Shown here: positions 60,774 to 64,000 of the stretch, in pieces | How the letters are laid out: each line of letters begins with the position of its first letter | How positions within the stretch are numbered: the first letter of the stretch is position 1 | DNA from: Pseudomonas wayambapalatensis | GTDB taxonomy: Bacteria > Pseudomonadota > Gammaproteobacteria > Pseudomonadales > Pseudomonadaceae | Assembly (NCBI GenBank): GCA_014268975.2 | Contig: CP077096.1 | Location: forward strand, 739,001-803,000 | Length of the DNA stretch: 64,000 nucleotides | Direction of reading: 5' to 3' | Translations under genes and position numbers: made by a program | The notes under the pieces: generated by a model | Told to the model about the DNA's origin: nothing | The model's input: only the letters and a program-made list of their open reading frames with translations | Databases searched by the model: none

Positions 60774-62708
60774 GTGTCTGCCATCCTCTCTCTGTTACGA
60801 AGCCGCCTCCTGCGGCCTGTTTTTGTTGCACTTGGTATCGCTCTTCTGGTGCAGGTCGTGGTCGCCGTCGTGCTGACCCGCAGCACCGTCACTGCACTGG
60901 AGGCCGATTTGGGCGAACGCCTGGGTGCTGACAGTCGCAAGCTGGCAGGTGAGCTGGAGCAGGCGGGGCAAGATGTGCGCTCCGGTCTCGACAGCCTCTC
61001 GGCCAGTACCCGGCAACGCCTGAGCGCGGGGCTTTCCACGCGATTACAGAGCGAACAGCAACAGCTACGCACCACGCTGGAGCAAAGCCTCAAGGAGTCG
61101 GCCAACGACATGGCCGAGTTGCTGGCCTCGGTGGCACCGAGGGCGATCTGGGACAATGACGTCCCCACGCTATCTGACTTCGCTCGTCGCGCGCAGCGCA
61201 ATCCCAACGTGCTGTTCGTGATCTACGACAACGCCGAGGGCGAGCACCTTACCCGTTACCTCAACCGCCAGAACCCGATCAATCAGGCACTGATGGAAAA
61301 GGGCCAGGGCGAGCGGGCGCTGGACAAGGTGCTCGACGCTGCGCGCCGGGATCCATCGGTGTACTTCGTCGAGGCTTCGATCAGCCCCAATGGCGCCCAG
61401 ATCGGCAAGGTACTCATGGGGGTCTCCACCGCCGCCGTCGATCAAGAGCTCAAGGCGCTCGACCAGCGCTTTGCCGCCCTGATCGCCAGTAGCGAACAAC
61501 TGGTCGGCGAGAGCCTCGGCGCTGCCGCAGCGGATAGCGGCAAGACCCTGCAGGCTCGTCTTGAGACGGCGCAGAACAGCGCCACTGCCATGCAGGCCAA
61601 TACCGCGCAGACGGTTCGCGACGCGGCCGGCGAGCTGCGTTGGCGCATCGGCGTCGGCCTGGTGCTGGTCGGGCTTGGCGTGCTGTTGGTGGTTGCCGTG
61701 GTGCTGGGGCGGCGGGTGGTCAGCAAGCTGCGCCTGTTGATCGCTGCCCTCGACGACCTGGCGGCCGGGGAGGGCGACCTGACCAAGCGGGTGGCGCTCG
61801 ACAGCCGTGACGAGATCGGCGACATGGCGTCGGCGGTCAACCGCTTCGTCGACAAGCTTCAGCCGATCGTCCGCGAAGCCGGTGAAGTGGCCCAGCGTAC
61901 CGGGGTGGAGATTGGCACCATGGCCGAGCGTAATGCGGGGGCCGATGCAGCGGCAGCGTTGCAGCGCGACGAGGTGGCGGCGAGTCTGCGCGACCTGTCG
62001 AGCATGGCCGACGAGGCCCAGGCCGAGAGCCACGCCATGCAGGCGGCGCTGCAGCAGGTCGTGGATATCCGCCAGGCTACCGACGAGAACAGCCGTGCCT
62101 CGACCCAACTGGCCAAGCTGATCGAGAAGCTGGCGGGAGAAGTGGAAAGCGGCTCGCAGGTCATCGAGCGCCTTGCCAAGCAGAGCGAGCAGATCGAAGT
62201 GGTGCTGACCGTGATTCATGGCATCGCCGAGCAGACCAACCTGCTGGCACTCAATGCGGCGATCGAGGCAGCGCGGGCCGGCGAGACAGGGCGTGGTTTT
62301 GCAGTGGTGGCCGATGAAGTGCGGGCCCTGGCGAGCAAGACGCAGAGCTCCACCGGCGATATCCAGGCGCATATCGTTGCCTTGCAGCAGGGGGCGAAAG
62401 AGGCTGTGGCCACCATCGGCCAAGCCGGGCGTCAGGCCAGCGAAGGGCTGCTGGTGCTGCGCGATAACGAACGTCGCCAGCAGTCGGTGCAGGCGGCGGT
62501 GGAGCAGGTGCATGCCGCAATCGGCCTGGCGACTCGCGCCGCCGAACAGCAAGCCAGCGGCGCCCAGGCGGTGCGGGGGCGGGTCGAGAATATCCACGCG
62601 CAGGCAGAGCGCTCGGCCGAAGTGGTGATGCAGACCACTGCCAGCAGCAAGGTGCTGGATGATCTGGCGGCGCAGTTAAGGGCGAGCCTGGGGCAGTTCA
62701 GGGCTTGA
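60774..62708 (+). CDS. Methyl-accepting chemotaxis protein
   Basis: A 644-residue chemoreceptor. TM1 is about residues 14-35, the periplasmic sensor spans about 36-289 (about 250 residues, larger than the usual 4-helix bundle of Tar), and TM2 is about 290-312. HAMP follows at 313-366. The signalling domain has the hairpin tip [19 protein letters not shown] (486-504) and [14 protein letters not shown]. No C-terminal CheR-tether pentapeptide is seen (ends LGQFRA). The start is GTG 60774. The ligand is unknown. It borders the quorum-sensing pair. Confidence 0.92.
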
Positions 62709-62964: not shown

Positions 62965-63675
62965 ATGCAATGGATGGGCGACATGCTGTCGGCGGTTTAT
63001 GACGCGCGCGATACGCAAACGTTGTTGGAAGAGGTCAAGGCAGCCGCACGCCATCTGGGCTTCGATTACTGTGCCTATGGCCTGCGCACGCCGCTGCCAG
63101 TCACCAAGCCACGGATCTTCATGCTCAGCAACTACAGCCGGCCATGGTGTGATCATTACCATGCCAATGGGTACCTGCTTCTTGATCCGACGGTCCGCCA
63201 CTGTCAGCGCTCGATGCAGCCAGTGGTCTGGGGCGACGAAATATTTGCCGACGCTCCGCAATTGTGGGATGAGGCGCGGCAGGCCGGTCTTCGCCACGGG
63301 TGGGCACAATCGTGTCTGGAGGGGAGCAAGGGCGGGGGGATGCTGACCCTGGCGCGCTCCGGTGAAGGCATCGGCGAAGGTGAGCTGCGTGCCCATGAGA
63401 CGCGGATGCGCTGGCTGGCGAATGTCGCCCACCAAGGCTTCTCGCGGCTGCTGTCGGATTCCTGGCAACCGCAGCCGCAGTCCCCGCTTTCCGAACGGGA
63501 GCGCGAAGTGCTGCGTTGGGCTGCCGATGGCAAGACGCTCAACGAGGTTGCCGACATCCTCACCTTGTCGATTGAAACGGTGAAATTCCACACCCGCAAT
63601 GCCGGCGCCAAACTGGGCGCTGCGAATCGTACGGCAGCGGTAGCGCGGGCGGCGCTTCTGGGGTTGCTGGCCTAG
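62965..63675 (+). CDS. LuxR-family quorum-sensing receptor
   Basis: A 236-residue AHL-responsive regulator. The autoinducer-binding domain (about residues 15-165) has the conserved W-x3-Y (PWCDHYHANG), the DP pair in LLLDPTV, W in VVWGDE and G in GGGMLTLA. The C-terminal GerE helix-turn-helix (about 172-230) has LSEREREVLRWAADGKT and SIETVKFHTRNAGAKLG. All residues usually invariant for AHL receptors are present, so it is likely functional. ATG 62965 has GGAGAG upstream. A luxI gene lies 112 nt downstream. Confidence 0.93.
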   Translation: MQWMGDMLSAVYDARDTQTLLEEVKAAARHLGFDYCAYGLRTPLPVTKPRIFMLSNYSRPWCDHYHANGYLLLDPTVRHCQRSMQPVVWGDEIFADAPQLWDEARQAGLRHGWAQSCLEGSKGGGMLTLARSGEGIGEGELRAHETRMRWLANVAHQGFSRLLSDSWQPQPQSPLSEREREVLRWAADGKTLNEVADILTLSIETVKFHTRNAGAKLGAANRTAAVARAALLGLLA

Positions 63676-63706
63676 CGCGAACGCCCTGCGCTTATGTGCA
63701 GAAGTA

Positions 63707-63726
63707 CCCTGCCAAATAGTGCAGTT
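63707..63726. promoter_or_regulatory. lux box (AHL-LuxR operator) before luxI
   Basis: CCCTGCCAAATAGTGCAGTT is an imperfect 20-bp dyad with CTGC-N8-GCAG, close in form to Pseudomonas rhl/las boxes. Its centre is about 71 nt before the luxI ATG, consistent with overlap of the -35 region and positive feedback. Confidence 0.7.
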
Positions 63727-63787
63727 TTGCTATCACCCTACTTCGAGTCGAATACGCGTCCTTTCCACATTGGCCGGAGGACGCGAG

Positions 63788-64000
63788 ATGGAGATCGTCG
63801 TTGGAACACAGCAGGAGCTAGGGCAGACGCGCTTGCTGCAGATGGACCGTTATCGTTATCGGGTATTCGTCGACACCCTGGGTTGGGAGCTGGCTTGTGA
63901 TCCAGGTCGCGAGCGTGATCAGTTCGACCATGACGAGACGCTCTATGTGCTTGCCTGCAACGATCAGGAGCAGGTCATAGGCACCGCGCGCTTGCTGCCA
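63788..64000 (+). CDS. LuxI-family acyl-homoserine-lactone synthase (5' part)
   Basis: The first 71 codons of an AHL synthase; the gene runs past the window. Conserved N-terminal residues are present: R23/R25 and F27 in RYRYRVF, W33 in TLGWEL, acidic D44/D47 in RDQFDHDET, and R68 in GTARLLP. The GTARLLP and RDQFDHD segments are closer to the CepI/RhlI type than to LasI. ATG 63788 has GGAGG 7 nt upstream. With luxR and the lux box it forms a complete circuit. The acyl chain made cannot be predicted from this part. Confidence 0.92.
   Translation, partial: MEIVVGTQQELGQTRLLQMDRYRYRVFVDTLGWELACDPGRERDQFDHDETLYVLACNDQEQVIGTARLLP

Follow-up and report, generated by a model that had tools for sequence, protein, structure and literature searches.

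Which genes does the LuxR-LuxI pair behind a chemoreceptor gene of Pseudomonas wayambapalatensis control, and is it the pair or its company that sets this locus apart? The window analysed here is a stretch of 64 kb (bases 739001-803000) from a genome assembled as a single contig of 5.25 Mb, with a completeness of 94.74%, and luxI runs across the right edge of the window. The first-pass annotation had described a complete tandem AHL circuit with the chemoreceptor on its left, and the description holds: luxR, a lux-box dyad and luxI are all present, both proteins have the expected family domains, and the chemoreceptor gene precedes them (Table 1). The annotation had also raised the possibility of a truncated luxI. 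The gene is cut by the window edge only. In the genome it is intact and encodes 206 amino acids without an internal stop; its last base, genome base 803408, lies 408 bases beyond the window (L005:3788-4408).

Table 1. Features of the luxR-luxI locus, in window coordinates
Feature	Position	Strand	Description
Chemoreceptor (MCP) gene	60774-62708	+	left flank of the inserted block
luxR-type AHL receptor gene	62965-63675	+	236 aa; Pfam Autoind_bind E 9.4e-37, GerE E 1.5e-17
lux box CCCTGCCAAATAGTGCAGTT	63707-63726	+	CT-N12-AG dyad, predicted
Possible -10 element TCGAAT	63748-63753	+	inferred by reading
luxI-type AHL synthase gene	ATG 63788; 63788-64000 in the window	+	first 71 codons in the window; Pfam Autoind_synth

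Alignment places W61, Y65, D74, P75 and W89 at the ligand positions of the LuxR protein and E179, L183 and G189 at its DNA contacts, all of which we take to be conserved contact residues of the family. The LuxI protein scores 98.7 bits against the Pfam Autoind_synth model (cut-off 24), and R23, F27, W33, E42, D44, D47, R68, F82, E99 and R102 are invariant in all 14 rows of the alignment; these are presumably the ten residues (R, F, W, E, D, D, R, F, E, R) conserved in such synthases. Searches of the whole genome found no other luxI, and two AHL-type luxR genes, the one of the pair and a solo gene about 257 kb away. The solo gene is unpaired (match at C1:1059498-1059920) and encodes 235 amino acids. 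It can be likened, by size alone, to the solo LuxR protein PpoR, which according to the available text of its description has 235 amino acids and is conserved in P. putida (PMC2703642). The PpuR-RsaL-PpuI system of P. putida is also an AHL circuit, and from the same species group, but the accessible parts of the sources place RsaL between R and I (PMC1949823, PMC3658600). Here, only 112 nt separate the luxR stop from the luxI start, which is too short for an RsaL or RsaM gene, and the layout is therefore not that of PpuR-RsaL-PpuI. The earlier proposal of a system distinct from PpuI/PpuR is thus borne out, by layout alone.

The circuit, the synthase type, the distinct layout and the rarity of the pair all stand, but the first-pass annotation missed an operon of AfsA type that begins just past the window edge. 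luxR and luxI are the first two genes of a block of nine on one strand. Behind luxI follow genes for a flavodoxin-fold reductase, a DUF2867 protein, an AfsA hotdog protein, an Old Yellow Enzyme (OYE), two short-chain dehydrogenases (SDR1 and SDR2) and a small membrane-like protein of 143 amino acids without a family match. The gaps from luxI onward are 47, 13, 9, 5 and 11 nt, then the gene ends overlap, and all nine frames are open. The AfsA, OYE and SDR families were assigned by Pfam, and the NCBIfam models nearest to the flavodoxin-fold reductase are KefF/KefG, with scores below their cut-offs. Phosphatase, transport, resistance and butyrolactone-receptor genes were not recognised in the block. 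On its 3' side lie two ABC-transporter genes on the opposite strand, followed by rnr (names assigned from sequence).

The block occupies the place between the chemoreceptor and ABC-transporter genes, which lie about 7.2 kb apart, the distance being filled by the nine genes. We compared this site in 20 relatives that rank high in the chemoreceptor list, leaving out G257, which carries the block, and G170, where a contig ends. None of the 20 has the block, a count that is not a frequency, as the sample was selected. The chemoreceptor and ABC genes are about 60-380 bp apart in 13 of them; five have a lone DUF2867 gene in between (two of these with at least 2 kb more), and in the remaining two the ABC gene was not found in the fetched stretch. 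The contrast between about 7.2 kb with the block and about 60-380 bp without it indicates a discrete insertion of the block at a variable site. The GC content of the block (about 0.60-0.64) does not stand out. At L104 (G102) and L114 (G346) no ABC gene was found next to the chemoreceptor gene within the fetched stretch, which suggests other inserted or exchanged DNA. The lone DUF2867 proteins (L113, L116, L117, L119 and L120) are 63-68% identical to the block copy. The lone genes may be remnants of the block or residents of the site. In a largely unresolved tree, they stand next to the copies from the block and neither group is nested in the other; the CT-N12-AG pattern of the lux box occurs upstream of the lone gene in one of the five stretches.

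The distribution was surveyed in 398 Pseudomonas genomes. LuxI-like proteins gave matches at E 1e-3 or better in 81 genomes (single-protein search), and full-length matches of at least 69% identity in four. The next ones reach at most 51%, with the exception of a LuxI fragment of 109 residues in G076 (56%). All four close carriers, three of which are Pseudomonas sp. S30, P. taiwanensis DSM 21245 and Pseudomonas sp. LB-090624, belong to the 62 genomes that, among the matches listed, have a chemoreceptor at least 80% identical to the one studied here (our own cut). The pair is thus rare among relatives, and not a general possession of the group, which had been the other concern. Among three orthologous loci the block proteins are 68-96% identical.

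The search with the AfsA protein gave matches in 11 of the 398 genomes, and in nine of these luxI lies 0.15-1.3 kb upstream of the AfsA gene. Six genomes keep the order of all nine genes, four at the chemoreceptor site and two elsewhere (G237 and G238, with block proteins 43-65% identical and, in G237, a ninth gene that matches in two pieces). The other three (G363, G347 and G254) have luxI-AfsA-OYE-SDR1 with a divergent luxR. AfsA genes without luxI linkage are found in G055, in G286 and as a second copy in G347. Outside the nine loci, no AfsA match was seen near a luxI match among the places listed for LuxI and for the Pfam AfsA model, which were compared by eye and within the limits set by draft contigs and by distant LuxI proteins that a single-protein search misses. 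This Pfam model has a wider reach than the AfsA protein, with matches in 46 of the 398 genomes, 45 of them above the cut-off. In 20 of the 46, the match lies inside an open frame of 1143-1247 amino acids, mostly as two matches (for example G143:C60:510870-511667 and G355:C1:2826480-2827277).

In the AfsA tree the nine linked genomes form three clades, and the tool warned that long branches meet. The linkage has therefore arisen in at most a few independent events, not nine. The LuxI tree, in which the clade with the divergent luxR stands apart, allows for two recruitments of luxI. The AfsA protein had no match in 72,556 plasmid records, and among 369 genomes of the class the AfsA profile matched two, P. 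wayambapalatensis itself and one other weakly. P. chlororaphis is a source of known butyrolactones. A phenazine or P. chlororaphis likeness of the nine genomes with this AfsA subtype was considered and found no support, with a PF03284 match in one of the nine (G237, 25.9 bits, cut-off 24). Taken alone, luxR and luxI form an ordinary circuit of RI type; what is unusual at this locus is their association with the AfsA operon.

Some expectations about the signal can be derived from the nearest relatives of the two regulatory proteins. Among solved structures, 3p2f, annotated as an AHL synthase, comes closest to LuxI (E 7.8e-42, compared with 2e-21 for LasI); we take it to be TofI, a CepI relative that makes C8-HSL. 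The earlier view of a CepI/RhlI-like rather than LasI-like synthase is in agreement with these values. For LuxR, the best matches are engineered RhlR variants (2.1e-65), natural QscR (2.4e-40; presumably the protein entered as 'quorum-sensing control repressor'), RhlR (1.1e-38) and SdiA (5.7e-37). As a guess from sequence, the LuxI product may be an AHL of short to medium acyl chain. The nearest sampled LuxI proteins outside the AfsA clusters come from five loci (46-51% identity), including one in G368, where luxR and luxI are followed, by family, by genes for AurF, a chorismate-binding protein, a prephenate dehydrogenase/chorismate mutase, SHMT and a TPP enzyme. The one locus of the five that was checked, that of G368, suggests that this LuxR/LuxI lineage may travel with antibiotic operons. 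The same locus (L063) has a LuxR-LuxI pair and then obafluorin-like genes in a putida-like genome, and ORFs of similar sizes are present in L067 (G168).

The first base of the lux box and the last base of the luxI ATG are 84 nt apart. The box is kept upstream of luxI with one or two changes in three orthologous loci, as ACCTGCCAAATAGTGCAGTT in Pseudomonas sp. S30 and as ACCTGCCAAATAGTGGAGTT in two others. All nine AfsA-linked loci have a CT-N12-AG dyad that starts at a distance of 80-84 nt, counted to the end of the luxI start codon (the distance in G237 was corrected by hand for its luxI ATG), which reads ACCTGCCCAAAAGAGCAGTA in G237 and G238, and AGCTGTCAAGGGTGACAGTA or a form ending in GGT in the third clade, with the divergent luxR. 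A 19-base form of the box with one ambiguous base has a single exact match in the 5.25-Mb genome. There are three further sites with three mismatches, about two of which would be expected by chance according to a rough estimate, against none for the reversed-pattern control. As a pattern, CT-N12-AG is loose, and several luxR-luxI gaps contain a second dyad; the evidence for the lux box lies in its constant position and in the retention of the 20-mer in otherwise altered DNA. One such second dyad, CCCTGCGCTTATGTGCAGAA, is located at 63684-63703, just 5' of the lux box, where none was seen in the three orthologous loci.

The dyad is not confined to AfsA-linked loci. Five related luxR-luxI pairs that lack AfsA were checked, and all five have it as well, at -81 or -85. 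It is therefore a mark of the LuxI lineage, and favours autoinduction of luxI rather than control of the operon. With the centre of the lux box at -42.5, TCGAAT would be the -10 element, and GTCGAATAC, 3' of the box, is common to the orthologues. An automatic promoter scan, a weak one, found no sigma-70 site near luxI.

The AfsA hotdog protein, with 404 amino acids, matches the Pfam AfsA model with 42.5 bits (cut-off 24), as do all 11 aligned members, and its HEHVPG-x-M-x-I-E-x-ARQ region is invariant in all 11. A single AfsA repeat was detected (residues 142-256) rather than two, and the score against the ScbA/BarX equivalog NF041195 is 37.4 bits, compared with a cut-off of 200. Among the AfsA frames of other genomes, some have two matches, and some are short, with one. 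The C-terminus was modelled by AlphaFold2 as six strands and a helix, in a model that was built from a three-row alignment, has a mean pLDDT of 41, and is usable for about residues 280-374 only. PilZ domains head the Foldseek matches of this part (4xrn at E 8.4e-5); the search was run with the whole model, and the PilZ-like match alone was used, the weaker E-values belonging to unrelated proteins (proteases and others). Pfam PilZ matches weakly in two of the 11 members (best E 0.0059). The motifs of c-di-GMP-binding PilZ domains, which we take to be RxxxR and [D/N]xSxxG, are incomplete in the alignment, with no conserved RxxxR and an SxxG that lacks the acidic or amide residue. For this reason, we do not claim that the AfsA protein binds c-di-GMP.

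The AfsA cassettes without luxI are informative with respect to the chemistry. Those of G055 (L060) and G347:C1 (L061) keep the order AfsA-OYE-SDR-SDR. The G055 cassette is accompanied by genes for a POR-domain protein, an AMP ligase, a carrier-like protein of 80 aa (with a DSM motif, no Pfam match), KAS III and a regulator of LysR type, and G347 has a similar carrier-like ORF. The ligase, the carrier-like protein and KAS III would be expected if AfsA took a beta-ketoacyl thioester. By their families, the neighbours look like a supply line for beta-ketoacyl groups, and they support a butenolide-type chemistry. As an observation on its own, the G055 cassette is possibly a complete butenolide cluster without AHL control. 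A precedent comes from Burkholderia gladioli, where, according to the available text, an AfsA domain was experimentally shown to condense 3-ketothioesters with DHAP (PMC7756379).

The operon is seen here in its gene content, its open frames, its conserved order with the lux-box dyad and its patchy distribution. The best reading, and in our view a probable one, is that of a butenolide or butyrolactone operon that is switched by AHL and headed by luxR, lux box and luxI. We infer the AHL, the read-through transcription, all reactions assigned to the enzymes, the product and the horizontal spread of the block as follows. luxR, lux box and luxI would constitute a self-contained AHL module, probably acquired by horizontal transfer. 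LuxI would make an AHL whose chain is probably short to medium, and AHL-bound LuxR would act at the box centred at 63716.5 to activate luxI in a positive feedback, with the genes behind luxI switched on by read-through. AfsA may then couple dihydroxyacetone phosphate, or another C3 phosphate, to a beta-ketoacyl thioester, which would yield a phosphorylated butenolide; OYE would reduce a C=C bond, and the SDRs keto groups. The product would be a butenolide or gamma-butyrolactone that could serve as an antibiotic, an antifungal or a second signal. Acaterin was considered as a product and dropped, as the papers found that name it do not, by title, deal with its genes.

Several other readings, not mutually exclusive, have to be weighed against this one. 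The most serious concerns the enzyme. AfsA may be a diverged hotdog/PilZ-like protein with another substrate that releases no free butenolide, in an operon that modifies a different acyl compound or detoxifies quinones or enones with the KefF/KefG-like flavoprotein and OYE. The single repeat with the PilZ-like C-terminus, the score under the butyrolactone-synthase cut-off and the presence of two flavoenzymes of detoxification type all speak for such a function. We nevertheless regard it as rather doubtful, in view of the HEHVPG-x-M-x-I-E-x-ARQ region that all 11 members share and of the carrier-like and KAS III genes beside the G055 cassette.

The regulatory part could also be read differently, as an ordinary stand-alone AHL circuit that serves distant genes, with the AfsA operon an independent neighbour under its own promoter. 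This would be compatible with the gap of 47 nt between luxI and the next gene, with the dyad at luxI genes that lack AfsA, and with the three weaker lux boxes elsewhere in the genome. It appears unlikely, since the luxI-AfsA linkage persists at the chemoreceptor site, at other sites and in the clade with the rearranged luxR, since no other AfsA type among the matches listed is near a listed luxI, and since the scan, weak as it was, found no dedicated promoter for the AfsA operon. Finally, the patchy presence of the block might be a sign that the insert is a silent remnant, no longer expressed. With all nine frames open, and three orthologous loci that retain the lux box and have proteins 68-96% identical, this is highly improbable.

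The AHL-switched lactone operon that we favour has partial counterparts in other bacteria. The AfsA/ScbA/BarX synthases of Streptomyces share the AfsA hotdog domain and have reductases alongside. Gamma-butyrolactone systems of Streptomyces use a TetR-type butyrolactone receptor. The block protein differs from the Streptomyces enzymes by its single repeat with PilZ-like C-terminus, by its score below the ScbA/BarX cut-off and by the LuxR/AHL regulator. In Chromobacterium subtsugae, another operon with an AfsA-hotdog gene is reported to be raised under AHL quorum sensing (PMC12114271). This AfsA gene sits with HAD hydrolase, DUF2165, MarR and efflux genes, and the accessible part of the report names no luxI or luxR neighbour and no OYE/SDR set (PMC12114271). 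Tandem luxR-luxI layouts, with both genes adjacent on one strand, are known in Pseudomonas as RI circuits (PMC3658600). The pair studied here differs in heading an operon of AfsA type, of which the available text makes no mention. The obafluorin cluster, with its luxIR homologues obaAB, likewise joins a quorum-sensing pair to an antibiotic operon, according to the portion of the source at hand (PMC5490192). The obafluorin-kind locus of G368, assigned by families and not by alignment to the oba genes, has another operon and another box (CCTAC...GTAGG). The conserved joining of an RI circuit to an AfsA-PilZ-like/OYE/SDR operon is thus a variant of biosynthetic operons linked to quorum sensing.

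The literature searched, which covered few subscription journals and no supplements and of which some sources were available in part, contained no description of a luxI-AfsA operon in Pseudomonas, the nearest case being the AHL-linked AfsA genes of C. subtsugae, and a prior description is possible. The accessible text of the P. taiwanensis CMS genome paper reports a species-specific LuxR family and names no such cluster (PMC7696974). Two antiSMASH papers list, in the parts available, butyrolactone and hserlactone clusters in Pseudomonas without a luxI-AfsA link (PMC8704066, PMC10192879), and one of them mentions Pseudomonas butenolides whose genes could not be assigned (PMC10192879).

More speculatively, the block might work as a relay of two lactones, a scheme to which we give little credence at present. 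In it, an AHL would switch on, from luxI's own operon, the making of another diffusible lactone by a butenolide synthase of a new, AfsA-PilZ-like type, and the block might supply the genes still missing for antifungal butyrolactones that are known from Pseudomonas but lack an assigned cluster. The absence of a phosphatase gene would fit loss of the phosphate by elimination, followed by OYE reduction of an alkylidene butenolide, and the PilZ-like part might tie the AfsA enzyme to a nucleotide or protein signal. The block is also a candidate gene set for those Pseudomonas butenolides whose genes could not be assigned (PMC10192879). Butyrolactone-type signals are the classic language of actinomycetes, and AHLs the classic language of proteobacteria. 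With an AHL synthase and a putative butyrolactone synthase in one conserved block, the locus would be a small, testable system that joins both.
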